The notes under the pieces are model-generated. The model made no database searches. It was not told the DNA's origin and saw nothing but the letters and a program-made list of their open reading frames with translations. This document shows, in pieces, positions 58,977 to 63,735 of a DNA stretch of 64,000 nt. The translations under genes and the position numbers were made by a program. The stretch spans positions 248,001-312,000 of the forward strand of contig NZ_LVEG02000005.1 of the NCBI RefSeq assembly GCF_001614315.2, read 5' to 3'. Numbering within the stretch: the first letter of the stretch is position 1; every line of letters begins with the position of its first letter. Origin of the DNA: Halofilum ochraceum. Its GTDB lineage: Bacteria; Pseudomonadota; Gammaproteobacteria; XJ16; Halofilaceae.

Positions 58977-60281
58977 CTACTGGCCATTCTGTTGCTGCAT
59001 GACTTCGTCGAAGTTCGTCTGCTTCTCGGTAACGTTCGCCCGTTCGAGAATCCAGTCGACCACGCGGTCCTCGACCACCATGGCCTGGACGCCCTGCAGC
59101 ATCTGCTGATTTTCATAGTAATGCTGCACAACCTGCTGCGGGTCATCGTAGGCGGAGGCCATCTCCTCGACCTTCTCGCGCACGGCTTCGTCGTCCGCCT
59201 GGATACCGTTGTTCTGGACCAGCTCCGAGAGCAGGAGCCCAAGCCGGACCCGGCGCAGCGCCTCTTCCCGGAACAGATCGTCGGGCAGCTGCTCATCGCC
59301 CATCTGACCGCCCAGGCGCTGCTTCATCTGCTCGCGCAGGCGACCGATCTCCTCGCTCACCAGCGCATCGGGCACGTCGATCGGATGACGCTGAACCAGC
59401 GCGTCCATCACCTGACGCTTCACCTGGGCCTCGAGCGCCTGTTTCAGCTCGCGCTCCATGTTCCGCCGCAGTCCGTCGCGCAGCTCATCGACCGAGCCGC
59501 TCTCGATCCCGAACTGGCGGGCGAACTCTTCGTCCACTTCCGGCAGCCGTCCGGCCTGGACCGACTTGCAGGTCACGGAGAACGTCGCATCGCGCCCGGC
59601 GAGTTCGCTGGAACCGTATTCTTCCGGGAACTTGACCTCGAGTTCGCGTTCTTCGCTCGGGCGGATTCCCTCGAGCTGGTCCTCGAAGCCATCGATCATG
59701 CGCCCGGCGCCGAGATCGACCGGCGTATCCTCGCCGGAGCCGCCCTCGAACGCCTCGCCGTCGATCCGGCCGACGAAATCGATCACGACCCGATCACCCT
59801 GCTCGGCGGGCCGGTCGACCTCCTCGAACTCCTGGCGCTGCTTCTGCAGCGTCTCGATCATGCCGTCGACGTCGGCCTCCGTGACCTCCGCCACCGGCTT
59901 CTCGACCGCGAGATCCGAGATCTCCCCGAGCTCGATCTCCGGGTAGACCTCGAACGTGGCCGTGTAGGCCATCCCGCCCTCGTCGGGCTGCTCATCGGCC
60001 GAGTCGATCCGGGGGGAACCGGCCGGCTGCATCTCGACCTGCGTGACCGCCTCCTGGAGCGTCGACTGAATGAGCTCGCCGACCACTTCCTGACGCACCT
60101 GCCCCCCATAGCGGGTACGGACCACGCGCATCGGCACCTTGCCGGGGCGGAACCCGTCCAGCCGCACCTGCTTCTGCAGCCGGTTGAGCCGCTCTTCAAC
60201 GGCGCCTTCAATCCGATCACTCGGGATTTCGACCTTGAGCGTGCGCTCCAGGCCTTCCTGACGTTCGACCGACACCTGCAT
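58977..60281 (-). CDS. tig: trigger factor
   Basis: Trigger factor is the ribosome-associated chaperone and prolyl isomerase. The 434-residue protein has the ribosome-docking motif in [19 protein letters not shown] (about 41-59), an FKBP-like isomerase domain ([20 protein letters not shown], about 160-180) and a helical C-terminal domain. The length matches E. coli (432). The ATG has GGAG 9 bases ahead. It is the first protein gene after the tRNA-Leu terminator. Confidence 0.96.
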
Positions 60282-60325
60282 TCGGGATTACTCCGGACTG
60301 ATCCGGCCGGGACACCGGCCGCTCA

Positions 60326-60360
60326 AACAGCAAAGCCCGCCGGCAACATGAGCCGCGGGC
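60326..60360 (-). terminator. intrinsic terminator after the tRNA cluster
   Basis: On the minus strand a GCCCGC/GCGGGC stem extended by GGC/GCC with a one-base bulge is followed by TTTGCTGTTT. It lies just after tRNA-Leu and before tig, closing the five-tRNA transcript. Confidence 0.7.
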
Positions 60361-60369
60361 TCCTTGTCA

Positions 60370-60459
60370 TGGTGCGAAAGGAGAGACTCGAACTCTCACG
60401 GGGGGTTGGCCCCCACTGGGACCTAAACCCAGCGCGTCTACCGGTTCCGCCACTTTCGC
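60370..60459 (-). tRNA. tRNA-Leu (TAG)
   Basis: The 90 bases include an encoded CCA. The acceptor GCGAAAG pairs with CTTTCGC, the anticodon loop TTTAGGT gives TAG, and a long variable arm typical of class II tRNAs is present. It is the last of five tRNA genes in this cluster. Confidence 0.96.
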
Positions 60460-60549
60460 GCGGTCGCCGTGGCGACCACCATATTGTACCGCACCTGCTC
60501 CTGGATGCGGATCGGCACCCGCGCGGATCACGTGGATCCCCGCGATGGA

Positions 60550-60625
<76 letters not shown>

Positions 60626-60631
60626 GTATTT

Positions 60632-60900
60632 TCGTCGGTGACCGGGCGTCCTGCCCGGCACCTCCACGCTCACGCGGGACGCGGTCCCGCATTCGCTCCG
60701 CGCTGATGCGCGGCGGGCCTCCTGGCCCGCGGTCTCGTCGGTGACCGGGGCGTCCTGCCCGGCACCTCCACGCTCACGCGGGACGCGGTCCCGCATTCGC
60801 TCCGCGCTGATGCGCGGCGGGCCTCCTGGCCCGCGGTTTCGTCGGTGATCGGGCGTCCTGCCCGGCACCGCCACGCTCACGCGCGACGCGGCCCCGTATG
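60632..60900. repeat. 103/104-bp tandem repeat with three hairpins per unit
   Basis: Unit starts at 60633, 60736 and 60840 give two complete copies and a partial third copy of about 60 bases. Copies one and two are almost identical; copy three has several substitutions. On the minus (transcribed) strand each full unit contains three GC stems: GCGGGCC-AGGA-GGCCCGC, GCGGGAC-CGC-GTCCCGC, and CCGGGC with GCCCGG. It lies inside the tRNA cluster between tRNA-His and tRNA-Lys and would be part of the primary transcript. No real ORF is seen. Confidence 0.9.
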
Positions 60901-60913
60901 GGCGTACTGAAAC

Positions 60914-60990
60914 TGGGGTGACCGATGGGACTCGAACCCACGACAACCGGAATCACAATCCGGGGCTCTACCTACTGAGCTACGGTCACC
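60914..60990 (-). tRNA. tRNA-His (GTG)
   Basis: The 77 bases include the extra 5' G that pairs with C73 and an encoded CCA. The anticodon loop contains GTG, and the T-arm is GTGGGTTCGAGTCCCAT. This is the normal bacterial tRNA-His form. Confidence 0.97.
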
Positions 60991-61004
60991 ATCGCTTGCT
61001 GAAC

Positions 61005-61081
61005 TGGCGCGCCCGGCAGGACTCGAACCTGCTACCCTCGGCTTAGAAGGCCGATGCTCTATCCACATGAGCTACGGGCGC
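61005..61081 (-). tRNA. tRNA-Arg (TCT)
   Basis: The 77 bases include an encoded CCA. The acceptor GCGCCCG pairs with CGGGCGC, the anticodon loop CTTCTAA gives TCT, and the T-arm is GCAGGTTCGAGTCCTGC. Confidence 0.96.
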
Positions 61082-61129
61082 GGAACGCTCGGGCGCACCC
61101 GCCGTCCGTTTGCGCGGGTGACCGTCATG

Positions 61130-61206
61130 TGGTCGGGGCAGAGGGATTTGAACCCCCGACCCTCGGCTCCCAAAGCCGATGCGCTACCAGACTGCGCTAT
61201 GCCCCG
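61130..61206 (-). tRNA. tRNA-Pro (TGG)
   Basis: The 77 bases include an encoded CCA. The acceptor CGGGGCA pairs with TGCCCCG, the anticodon is TGG, and the T-arm is GGGGGTTCAAATCCCTC. It is the first tRNA of the cluster, downstream of gltX. Confidence 0.96.
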
Positions 61207-61289
61207 ACGCCGAAACGTATCAGTGATCGCGTTCGGGCGCAGGCGCGGAAGTTTAGGGGAAGCCCCGGGGAGCGTCAATCGCCGATCGG

Positions 61290-62714
61290 TCAATCGGCGG
61301 CGCAGGCCCGCAGGCGTGCGGCCACCAGCTCTGGCGGCATCAACGGGACCACCGCGCCCAGTTCCGGCCCTTCCACCGCGTTGGTGAGCGCGGCGCGCAG
61401 CGGCCGGTACAGCCCACGGCCCTTGGCGCCGGCCGCCCTCCCCGTGGCTTTCGCCCAGGCACCGAAGTCCTCCGTCGGCGCAGGATCCTGCACGGCCAGG
61501 GCGGCGCGGAACAGTCCCGGGCCCGCGGCCGCGATCTCGGCGCGCGCGTCGCTGTCGGGCTCCGCCTCGGGGTCGAACAGGCGCCGCGCCCAGGCCCAGC
61601 CATCCTCCGGGAACAGGATGTTCGGGCGGACCGCCGCCGCGAACACGGGGCCATCAACCGGCAGTGCGACCGCGTCCTCCGGCGCACCGGCAGCCATCCA
61701 TTCCCAGAGCGCATCCGCATCCAGGCGATCCAGGGCCTGGCGCTGCCAGCCGTCCAGAGCGGCTCCATCGTGGCGGGCGCCACCATGGGCAACCCGCGCC
61801 GGGTCGAAGGCCGCCGCCAGCGCATCGAGGTCCATGATGCCGTCGGCGGGCGGCGCAAATCCGATCCGCACGAGATGGTTGATCAGCGCTTCCGGGCGAT
61901 AGCCGCGCGCGCGCAGTTCATCGAGCATCGCGCCGCCCCGGCGCTTCGACAACGGGCGGCCATCCATGTCCAGGATGAGGCCAAAGTGGCCATAGCGCGG
62001 TTGCTGCCCGTAGCCCAACGCGTTCAGCAGCAGCAGCTGACGCGGGGTGTTGGTGAGATGGTCCTCGCCACGCAAAACGTGCGTGACCGCCATCTCGGCA
62101 TCGTCGACGGCGTTGGCGAGGAAAAAAGCCGGGGAGCCGTCCGAACGCGCGATGATGAAATCACCGATTTCGCGCAGGCGGGCCGTCTGGGAGCCCAGCA
62201 CCAGATCACTGAACGTGATGGAACCCTCATCCGGGACCCGGAAGCGGATCGTCGGTACGCGCCCGGCGGCCTCGCGCTCGGCACGCTCTTCCGCGCTCAG
62301 ATCCCGGCAGGTGCCCGGATAGCGCGGCGGTCGGCCCGCCGCGAGCTGACGCCGTCGCGCCTCCGCGAGTTCTTCCCGCGTGCAGTAGCAGCGATAGGCG
62401 TGCCCACTGTCCTGCAGGCGGGCGAGTGCGTCGTCATACAGGCGGGAACGCTCCGACTGCCGGTACGGCCCATGCGGACCGCCCTCCTCCGGGCCTTCGT
62501 CTACCGTCAGTCCAAGCCACCCGAGGGCATCGGTCAGCGCGGTAAGCGAGGCGTCCGCGCTGCGCTCGGCGTCGGTGTCCTCGCTGCGCAGAATAAACCG
62601 GCCACCGTGACCGCGCGCATACAGCCAGTTGAACAACGCCGTGCGGACGTTGCCCAGGTGGAGTGCCCCGGTCGGGCTCGGCGCGAAACGTGTTCGGATC
62701 GGGTCATCGGACAT
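61290..62714 (-). CDS. gltX: glutamyl-tRNA synthetase
   Basis: GltX charges tRNA-Glu. The 474-residue class I enzyme has the HIGH-type motif in FAPSPTGALHLGNVRTALFNW (HLGN variant), YRCYCTREELAEARR in the zinc-region position, and the KMSKS-type motif in DGRPLSKRRGG (P-L-S-K-R, with the first lysine replaced by Pro). The ATG at 62714 is the only good start. It precedes the tRNA-Pro-Arg-His-Lys-Leu cluster, which may be cotranscribed or have its own promoter. Confidence 0.96.
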   Translation of the reverse strand: MSDDPIRTRFAPSPTGALHLGNVRTALFNWLYARGHGGRFILRSEDTDAERSADASLTALTDALGWLGLTVDEGPEEGGPHGPYRQSERSRLYDDALARLQDSGHAYRCYCTREELAEARRRQLAAGRPPRYPGTCRDLSAEERAEREAAGRVPTIRFRVPDEGSITFSDLVLGSQTARLREIGDFIIARSDGSPAFFLANAVDDAEMAVTHVLRGEDHLTNTPRQLLLLNALGYGQQPRYGHFGLILDMDGRPLSKRRGGAMLDELRARGYRPEALINHLVRIGFAPPADGIMDLDALAAAFDPARVAHGGARHDGAALDGWQRQALDRLDADALWEWMAAGAPEDAVALPVDGPVFAAAVRPNILFPEDGWAWARRLFDPEAEPDSDARAEIAAAGPGLFRAALAVQDPAPTEDFGAWAKATGRAAGAKGRGLYRPLRAALTNAVEGPELGAVVPLMPPELVAARLRACAAD

Positions 62715-62783
62715 GGCGCGCGATGGTAGCAGAGCGTGACCGCCGATTCGTCATCCGACATCCGATTGACGCAGCTTTCGGTC

Positions 62784-62874
62784 GCCCTTCGCCCTTCGCC
62801 CTTCGCCCTTCGCCCTTCGCCCTTCGCCCTTCGCCCTTCGCCTGCCGCCTGCCGCCTGCCGCCTGCCGCCTGCC
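62784..62874. repeat. heptamer tandem array (8 x GCCCTTC + 5 x GCCTGCC)
   Basis: Thirteen consecutive 7-base units span 91 bases: eight GCCCTTC followed by five GCCTGCC, with no interruption. They lie in the 262-base gap between the divergent gltX and lpxH starts. Such arrays change copy number by slippage, so strains may differ in length. The frames that read through it give simple repeat peptides and are not genes. Confidence 0.95.
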
Positions 62875-62976: not shown

Positions 62977-63735
62977 ATGGCCGACGCACCCGGGGCACAG
63001 TGGTCGGATGCCGCGACCGTATTGTTCATCGCGGATCTCCACCTCGATCCGGCCCGCCCACTGATGATCGACGCGTTCCGCGCCTTCTGCGAGGGGCCTG
63101 CACGCACGGCGAGGGCCGTCTACATCCTGGGCGATCTGTTCGAGGTGTGGATCGGTGACGATGACGACGACCCGGTCTGGGACCGGGTCATCGATGCGAT
63201 CGGCAGGCTCTCCGCACACGGCGTGGCGGTCCACTTCATGCCCGGAAACCGTGATTTTCTCGTCGGCGACCGGCTGCTCGCGCGCACCGGCATGGTGCGG
63301 CTGGACGACATCGAGGTGATCACGCTTGGCGATCGCCGTACCCTGCTCTGTCATGGCGATACGCTGTGTACCGATGACACCGCCTACCAGACGTTCCGGC
63401 GCCAGGTCCGCAGCCCGGATTGGCAACGGGATTTCCTTGCCCGTCCCCTGGCCGAACGACGCCAGATCGCGGCGGGTCTGCGCGACGACAGCGGCGATGC
63501 GATGTCCGGCAAAAGTTCCGTCGAGATGGACGTCAATGCCGAAGCCCTGCGTGCGGTCTGCCGCGAGCAGTCGGTCGAGCGCGTGATCCACGGCCACACC
63601 CATCGACCGACTCGCGACCAATGGAGGGTTGACGGCACGACGGTCGAGCGCTGGGTGCTGGCCGACTGGTTCACGGCCGGATCGATGCTGCGCGCGCGGG
63701 AGGGCGAAATCGAGGCCGTCGACCTGTCTGACTGA
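62977..63735 (+). CDS. lpxH: UDP-2,3-diacylglucosamine diphosphatase
   Basis: LpxH hydrolyses UDP-2,3-diacylglucosamine to lipid X in lipid A synthesis. The 252-residue calcineurin-like phosphoesterase has FIADLHLD (about 17-24), ILGDLFEVWIGDDDDD, MPGNRDFLVGDRLL, LCHGDTLCTDD and IHGHTHRP, giving all metal ligands. The ATG at 62977 has AAGGA ahead. With lpxK, msbA and kdsB it is the fourth lipid A gene of the window. It is divergent from gltX across the heptamer array. Confidence 0.96.
   Translation: MADAPGAQWSDAATVLFIADLHLDPARPLMIDAFRAFCEGPARTARAVYILGDLFEVWIGDDDDDPVWDRVIDAIGRLSAHGVAVHFMPGNRDFLVGDRLLARTGMVRLDDIEVITLGDRRTLLCHGDTLCTDDTAYQTFRRQVRSPDWQRDFLARPLAERRQIAAGLRDDSGDAMSGKSSVEMDVNAEALRAVCREQSVERVIHGHTHRPTRDQWRVDGTTVERWVLADWFTAGSMLRAREGEIEAVDLSD

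Follow-up and report, generated by a model that had tools for sequence, protein, structure and literature searches.

The spacers of tRNA operons are usually regarded as waste. The closest described systems to the one presented here are the 22 tRNA-linked repeats (TLRs) of E. coli, all of which are said, in the portion of PMC8144298 that was available, to terminate in 18–19 bp that repeat the 3' end of the tRNA or rRNA lying upstream. According to the same portion, TLRs lie inside tRNA or rRNA operons with one to five per locus, one of them within the tyrT-tyrV transcript; three from rRNA operons (RrA, RrB and RrF) yield small RNAs, of which RrB binds CsrA in vitro, while those from tRNA operons are given no known function as of 2021 (PMC8144298). 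That text also describes 3'ETS-leuZ of E. coli, a spacer of a tRNA transcript that sponges small RNAs (PMC8144298). The repeated CsrA-binding motif of CsrB is given as CAGGA(U/A/C)G in the available portions of PMC5027483 and PMC7652899.

The present locus lies in the window, i.e., the whole stretch of 64,000 nt that was analysed, and consists of a tandem array between the tRNA-His and tRNA-Lys genes of a five-gene cluster (Table 1). E. coli TLRs are its nearest known kind. Like them, the array is situated in a tRNA cluster, is presumably co-transcribed with it, and has a copy number (2.6) within the range of one to five. However, it lacks the defining 18–19 bp copy of a tRNA 3' end. Its longest same-strand identity with any of the five tRNAs was 8 nt (tRNA-His, CGGTCACC; tRNA-Arg, TGCCGGGC), which was within the range of shuffled sequences (means of 6.9 and 7.8, maxima of 11 and 12, respectively), and the presence of tRNA fragments within the unit, beyond chance, was therefore rejected. 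It also differs in that its shared hairpin (hairpin B) abuts the 5' side of the downstream tRNA, rather than the 3' end of the upstream tRNA. When compared by description, RrA, RrB and RrF resemble the array as RNA from a stable-RNA operon with GGA in hairpin loops (PMC8144298, in the portion available), release of the RNA being proposed in the window's case; they differ in their location behind 5S rRNA and between terminators. The hairpins in the window have CAGGA(U/A/C)G-like loops, as do CsrB/CsrC and RsmY/Z, but the array is not an independent gene, and its genome yielded no CsrB match at E 10 and RsmZ matches only below the cut-off. In 3'ETS-leuZ a pre-tRNA spacer is put to regulatory use, which is only proposed for the spacer in the window, and 3'ETS-leuZ differs in being a 3' external spacer that acts on small RNAs. 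To our knowledge, it contains no tandem repeat. REP and BIME elements are GC-rich palindromes that are dispersed through genomes; the hairpins in the window are likewise GC-rich palindromes, but the unit occupies one genomic place. Intergenic TAACTGA repeats in Beggiatoaceae are reportedly the subject of a published paper.

Table 1. Positions of features at the tRNA-His to tRNA-Lys locus of the window, and of the corresponding broken spacer in G123.
Feature	Position	Strand	Method, score or locus
tRNA-Pro(TGG)	61130..61206	-	tRNA search
tRNA-Arg(TCT)	61005..61081	-	tRNA search
tRNA-His(GTG), upstream neighbour of array	60914..60989	-	ARAGORN
tRNA-Lys(CTT), downstream neighbour of array	60550..60625	-	ARAGORN
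tRNA-Leu(TAG), last tRNA of cluster, ahead of ORF read as trigger factor	60370..60459	-	
Putative sigma-70-like promoter, TTGACG-17-TAAACT, ahead of tRNA-Pro	61250..61278	-	consensus scan
ORF read as trigger factor, after tRNA-Leu	58977-60281		
Whole His-Lys spacer, 288 nt, containing array	60626..60913	-	
Tandem array, period 103/104, 2.6 copies	60632..60896	-	Tandem Repeats Finder
Hairpin B region, tRNA-Lys-proximal copy (loop AGGAC, motif CAGGACG); leader hairpin common to other genomes	60627..60667	-	64.2 bits
Hairpin B region, middle copy, extra C in 3' arm	60731..60771	-	57.8 bits
Hairpin B region, tRNA-His-proximal copy, C-A mismatch	60835..60874	-	58.3 bits
Hairpin C, loop AGGA (CAGGAGG)	60713..60730	-	
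Hairpin C, loop AGGA (CAGGAGG)	60817..60834	-	
Hairpin A, loop CGC on transcribed strand	60674..60690	-	
Hairpin A, loop CGC on transcribed strand	60778..60794	-	
Hairpin D, loop AUCA	60699..60712	-	
Hairpin D, loop AUCA	60803..60816	-	
G123, contig-end loci of broken spacer	C23:1-153 and C36:17218-17404		L257, L260

The order along the transcript is Pro-Arg-His-array-Lys-Leu, all on the minus strand, and the ORFs that follow tRNA-Leu we take, from the look of their translations, to be trigger factor, clpP, clpX and lon. A consensus scan of 60280–61330 identified one promoter-like site, ahead of tRNA-Pro, where 0.1 were expected in shuffles, while the same interval contained no terminator-like site (a hairpin with a T tract). 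With a single promoter-like site ahead of tRNA-Pro and no terminator-like site, the five tRNA genes would most simply form one transcript. A separate promoter for tRNA-Lys, which had been named in the initial annotation as an objection to its own reading, was not seen in this interval. The absence of sites combining a hairpin with a T tract there also led to the rejection of an array of intrinsic terminators. A protein-coding origin was rejected too; a 207-aa ORF (60323–60946, minus strand) spans the interior of tRNA-His, the array, tRNA-Lys and tRNA-Leu, and the 103/104 unit breaks the frame. Among known RNA families, only tRNAs reached the gathering score in the region.

Tandem Repeats Finder gave a period of 104, 2.6 copies, 95% matches and a score of 486 for 60632–60896, the second-ranked tandem repeat in the window scoring only 122. 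With the tRNA genes placed by ARAGORN, this confirmed the earlier claim that a 103/104-base unit occurs about 2.6 times between tRNA-His and tRNA-Lys. On the transcribed strand, a single 104-nt unit was predicted to fold at -62.9 kcal/mol (z = -3.8), which none of 200 shuffles equalled, and the 288-nt spacer folded better than 200 of 200 dinucleotide shuffles (z = -6.3), for part of which the duplication accounts. The predicted fold contained four hairpins per unit, rather than the three that had been noted before. With folding limited to short-range pairs, these were, in transcript order, C (loop AGGA, stem GCGGGCC/GGCCCGC), D (loop AUCA, stem CGCGC/GCGCG), A (loop CGC, stem GCGGGAC/GUCCCGC) and B (loop AGGAC, stem GGUGCCGGGC/GCCCGGUCACC with a U bulge). 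Hairpin A is self-complementary and its copies can therefore pair with each other, as they did in the unrestricted fold. The symmetry ascribed to the stems was found in both C hairpins and in two of the three A hairpins; it was lost in the tRNA-His-proximal copy, where the A stem was broken and B had a C-A mismatch, and in the B hairpin of the middle copy, which had an extra C. The most damaged copy of the unit was the one adjoining tRNA-His.

The array was found once in its own 3.64-Mb genome. A genome search for further copies returned the full unit at a single place, showing that it is not a genome-wide repeat, and this, together with the shorter and different spacer of a sister species, supported the suggestion of a local expansion. 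The second match to the unit in the genome (L002) had 85% identity over 34 nt, at a locus without tRNA genes; it was treated as chance, along with L003 and L004, all three being matches of 28–47 nt at loci without tRNA genes. When up to three mismatches were allowed, hairpin B was found at two places in the genome, both within the array, the middle copy escaping the pattern owing to its insertion. Hairpin C with 0–1 mismatches occurred solely within the array, while at up to three mismatches there were 36 matches, compared with 42 for the reversed control. A dispersed palindrome of the REP/BIME type was rejected on these grounds, i.e., one genomic place for the unit, and hairpins B and C (0–1 mismatches) only in the array. 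There was no phage match at E 1e-5 that might indicate a phage origin, no match to the exact pattern among viral contigs, and no plasmid match to a 59-nt query at E 0.01; the first exact pattern had no match in the genome contigs.

Hairpin B next to tRNA-Lys was matched in 3 of 368 other genomes of the class, two of them in one genus of another family and at the same spacer. Including the genome of the window, the pattern (up to three mismatches) was found in 4 of 369 class genomes, i.e., the window's own, G123, G223 and G195; the reversed control had one match in the 369, in G063. The match in G195 had three mismatches and lay at a locus without tRNA, and is probably due to chance. G123 and G223 are species of one genus, and in both hairpin B stands before tRNA-Lys, which upheld the proposed link to the tRNA operon. 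In G223 the His-Lys spacer is 164 nt long and the hairpin region ends right at tRNA-Lys. The spacer in G123 contains two units with starts 120 nt apart and a hairpin B in each, one of these being at a contig end beside tRNA-His. It is split over the ends of two contigs, which share an overlap of 33 nt, the assembly having broken inside the duplicated spacer; the true copy number may be above two, and with such breaks the copy numbers given may be minima. Several other loci also stop at contig ends, where the spacer may be cut or missing. The arrangement in G123 and G223 resembles that of the window, with AGGA loops in the first and last hairpins and two hairpins between, and their third hairpin also contains GGA, in the stem or an inner loop. 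The 60 kb examined of the G223 contig had no match to trigger factor, and the neighbourhood therefore differs there. The other two of the four genomes compared in this family had spacers of 41 nt.

Within the genus of the window, G001 had a trigger factor ORF with 90% identity (1173/1302), identical tRNA-His and tRNA-Lys genes, and other tRNA spacers that were nearly the same (47/48, 13/14 and 82/90). Its His-Lys spacer was 112 nt long and local alignment with the window covered only the last 37 nt, corresponding to the hairpin B region. A global alignment of the two spacers (87 of 111) carries no weight here, as free gaps in the longer spacer inflate it. The three stem changes observed there all preserved pairing (C-G to U-G once, and to G-U twice), with one pair falling on an alignment gap, while the loop was AAAA as against AGGAC; retention of the stem with a different loop is the pattern to be expected were the stem the conserved feature. 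A second congener, G002, had a His-Lys spacer of 35 nt without the hairpin. Given this spacer and the two 41-nt spacers in the family of G223, the element is dispensable. Its patchy presence in two families suggests either exchange of spacers, or old age with many losses.

Over GTGGAG..GACGAAAA, G123 and the window were identical at 36 of 38 bases; both differences concerned a single base pair (G-C to C-G), making a compensatory change. At this pair (7-31) the window has G-C, G123 and G223 have C-G, and G001 has G-U. Alignment scores for hairpin B were 70 for G123, 54 for G223 and 32 for G001, where the maxima among shuffles, which do not keep the palindrome, were 30 (2000 shuffles), 32 and 26, respectively. 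Among the aligned hairpins 98.6% of cells pair, compared with 19–55% when the partner was slid. In the column-shuffle control, the covariation score and the percentage paired were each equalled in 13 of 500 shuffles, but a double change was present at one pair only and 463 of 500 shuffles reached that count. Beyond hairpin B, there was no significant similarity between the units of the two genera, since the scores of G123, G223 and G001 were reached by 55, 381 and 136 of 500 shuffles, respectively. A covariance model (R1) scored the seven known copies (nine rows, two of them duplicates) at 45–70 bits and every other match listed from 170 sources at 16.2 bits or below; the model was trained on these same seven copies, such that only the score gap and the absence of new members are informative, and it identified no further hairpin B members in the 170 sources.

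Judging by the aligned sequences, one hairpin (B) is under visible constraint, and it most likely represents a tRNA-Lys leader element acting in cis. The element looks like more than a random repeat, as hairpin B is found again ahead of the same tRNA in a genus from a different family, one species of which also has the spacer duplicated. We regard it as evenly balanced whether the array represents tandem amplification of a spacer element that is structured and co-transcribed within the Pro-Arg-His-Lys-Leu cluster, anchored by hairpin B as the tRNA-Lys leader; the role in cis belongs to this interpretation. The cluster would be read as one precursor, in which hairpin B may function as a folded insulator and processing landmark that prevents a long spacer from interfering with the tRNA folds, and may present short, A/U-richer flanks to RNase E and RNase P, i.e., GUUUCAGUA after tRNA-His and CGACGAAAAUAC before tRNA-Lys. 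Unequal recombination or slippage between the palindromic units could have added the further copies, which might be tolerated because each folds on itself. Once excised, the spacer RNA (up to ~290 nt) would be structured. The array may also, as proposed initially, slow or process the tRNA precursor. A somewhat improbable alternative is that the duplication is neutral, in which case slippage would have copied a palindromic spacer whose RNA is made and then degraded and has no role other than to avoid interfering. The copies are near-identical, indicating that the duplication is recent or has been homogenised; the differences between them mostly harm stems, which fits relaxed selection on the extra copies; the array is absent or different in close relatives, and unrelated long tandem repeats were present in tRNA spacers at 2 of 160 other loci (L116 and L154). 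Neutrality is harder to reconcile with the presence of hairpin B in another genus, where it occupies the same site and carries a compensatory change, with its near-absence from the rest of the 369 genomes, or with duplication of the same site in one species of that genus. The recurrence of hairpin B in two genera of different families, the compensatory change and the tandem copies in one species of each suggest that something in the His-Lys spacer is under selection, and the element offers a compact system for testing a function of repeats in tRNA operons. It is highly improbable that the hairpins modulate transcription, with pausing or partial termination between tRNA-His and tRNA-Lys lowering tRNA-Lys and tRNA-Leu relative to tRNA-Pro, tRNA-Arg and tRNA-His. 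There are indeed strong hairpins between genes on the transcribed strand, but 60280–61330 contains nothing resembling a terminator, and a drop in tRNA-Lys and tRNA-Leu would presumably be costly.

In the initial annotation it was also suggested that the copies may bind a protein; the local expansion and the link to the tRNA operon stood, while for protein binding it is only the AGGA loops that suggest it. The specific form of this idea, that the excised spacer RNA titrates CsrA/RsmA with five AGGA hairpins in the manner of a small CsrB, is improbable. Each unit would then contribute a GUGGAG linker and two hairpins whose apical loops contain AGGA, and copying of the unit would raise the dose, coupling the output of the tRNA operon, and with it growth rate, to CsrA activity. 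The CsrB-type motif CAGGA(U/A/C)G is present as CAGGACG in the loops of hairpin B (three times), while the CAGGAGG of hairpin C (twice) is only approximate; neither occurs on the opposite strand. AGGA was observed five times in the spacer, compared with 1.3 in mononucleotide shuffles (p = 0.007), and twice in a single unit, compared with 0.4 (p = 0.06); the chance of AGGA in two of four loops is 9e-5 at this composition, or 0.05 for any 4-mer in two loops. The other genus retains AGGA in its first and last hairpins despite having a different first stem (GCAC/GUGC). On the transcribed strand, hairpins with AGGA or AGGGA loops were found in 5 of 13 other His-Lys spacers of at least 100 nt (two of the five from one genus), against 0 of 13 on the opposite strand and a shuffle expectation of 0.4 on average and 2 at most (stem 5). 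Ranked by the number of loci, AGGA (6) also shared second place among the loop 4-mers of 179 spacer hairpins excluding the window, where TTTT had 10. The genome has a csrA gene, and the binding of RrB, a TLR from an E. coli rRNA operon, to CsrA in vitro provides a precedent (PMC8144298, in the portion available). Against this, the sister species G001 keeps the stem with a loop of AAAA and no AGGA, GGA by itself shows no excess (11 occurrences in the spacer against 7.7 in shuffles, p = 0.12), and CA-N-GGA-N-G is absent from the spacer of the window, occurring in other spacers 11 times in sense and 15 times on the wrong strand. CAGGA-N-G was tied seventh to tenth by loci among 60 letter permutations in other spacers (10, where the best had 17), and the contrast was weaker with stem 4 across all 49 His-Lys spacers of at least 25 nt (5 in sense and 2 in antisense; shuffles averaged 1.05 and reached at most 4). 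Loops of 4–5 nt on stems of 6–7 G-C pairs depart from the SELEX optimum of six-nt loops with at most four contiguous pairs (PMC7652899, in part), and 19 E. coli repeats from tRNA operons have a CsrA-binder score below 0.01 in the available portion of PMC8144298. Hairpins B and C may moreover be old copies of each other. If the loops do bind CsrA, growth-rate-controlled tRNA synthesis would be tied to a global post-transcriptional regulator. A fuller version, decidedly improbable, holds that a mobile or repeatedly exchanged tRNA-spacer element with paired AGGA-loop hairpins was amplified in place independently in two genera, producing a CsrA-titrating RNA from the tRNA precursor, such that transcription of the tRNA operon sets the free CsrA pool.

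A general enrichment of CsrA-type hairpins in tRNA spacers was rejected, being weak and with CA-N-GGA-N-G running in the opposite direction. Excluding the window, AGGA-type spacer hairpins in sense and antisense numbered 12 and 4 with stem 5, 18 and 9 with stem 4, and 8 and 2 with stem 6; three of the four antisense examples at stem 5 came from one genus. Counts made with different stem rules (G-U allowed or not, stem 4–6) are not interchangeable, and one early count included the window twice (L001 and L005), where later counts omit it. At stem 5, spacers had 0.40 such hairpins per kb in sense and 0.13 in antisense, compared with 0.034 in general sequence, a rough yardstick of 400 kb on both strands (800,000 nt) with genic parts included. 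Searches with Csr/Rsm family models returned no row for the spacer among matches to E 5; in the three genomes searched, the CsrB model had no match at E 10 and the RsmZ model only matches below its cut-off, and UvrY-like response regulators likewise matched only below the cut-off of their model. Within the open-licence literature, arrays of CsrA-type hairpins in tRNA spacers were not encountered beyond the neighbouring case in the available portion of PMC8144298.

The survey of tRNA spacers covered 161 loci with tRNA-His and 415 distinct spacers, of which the 214 of at least 40 nt were scanned. The tRNA-His pattern matched 182 of 276 class genomes and not the other 94, and the loci taken from that search were 30 among the matches listed plus 80 further stretches; many further loci without tRNA-His nearby were dropped. 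The 161 loci do not equate to 161 independent genomes, as some genomes are represented twice and merging was confined to identical spacers. Tandem repeats with a unit longer than 50 nt were present in only three of the 161, i.e., the window, L116 (179-nt unit) and L154 (59-nt unit). By eye, the arrays of L116 and L154 carry pieces of tRNA 3' ends, as TLRs do, unlike the array in the window. Arrays like that of the window are therefore rare in tRNA operons, but not unheard of.

Other structures were seen by eye in these spacers. In L154 (from G221) the His-Leu spacer had a 59-nt unit in 2.8 copies with an apparent tRNA 3' fragment, resembling a TLR. The spacers of L116 (Arg-His and Pro-Arg), L231 (Arg-His) and L232 (Pro-Arg) contained the 3' part of the upstream tRNA a second time, its T loop (GTTCGA / TC..) interrupted by ~70–85 nt of hairpins, as though tRNA T loops were insertion sites for a small hairpin element. 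The Pro-Arg spacers of L116 and L232 share GTAGAGAGATTTGAAC..TCTCTCTACCCCGACCA around different hairpin inserts, which suggests that the same insertion site in tRNA-Pro may have been used twice. In the His-Lys spacers of L034, L183 and L014, and the Pro-Arg spacers of L034, L203 and L204, a second copy of the downstream tRNA begins and then stops in the D loop (..TAGCTCAGTTGG); these truncated copies lead into hairpins, of which several have AGGA or AGGGATGG loops, and the intact tRNA comes after them. Elsewhere in the window, 62782–62874 consists of perfect heptamer repeats, TCGCCCT in 8.7 copies followed by CGCCTGC in 5.1 copies, between ORFs that are presumably gltX (61290–62714, minus strand) and a divergent lpxH-like gene (62977–63735, plus strand); a change in heptamer copy number there could alter expression.
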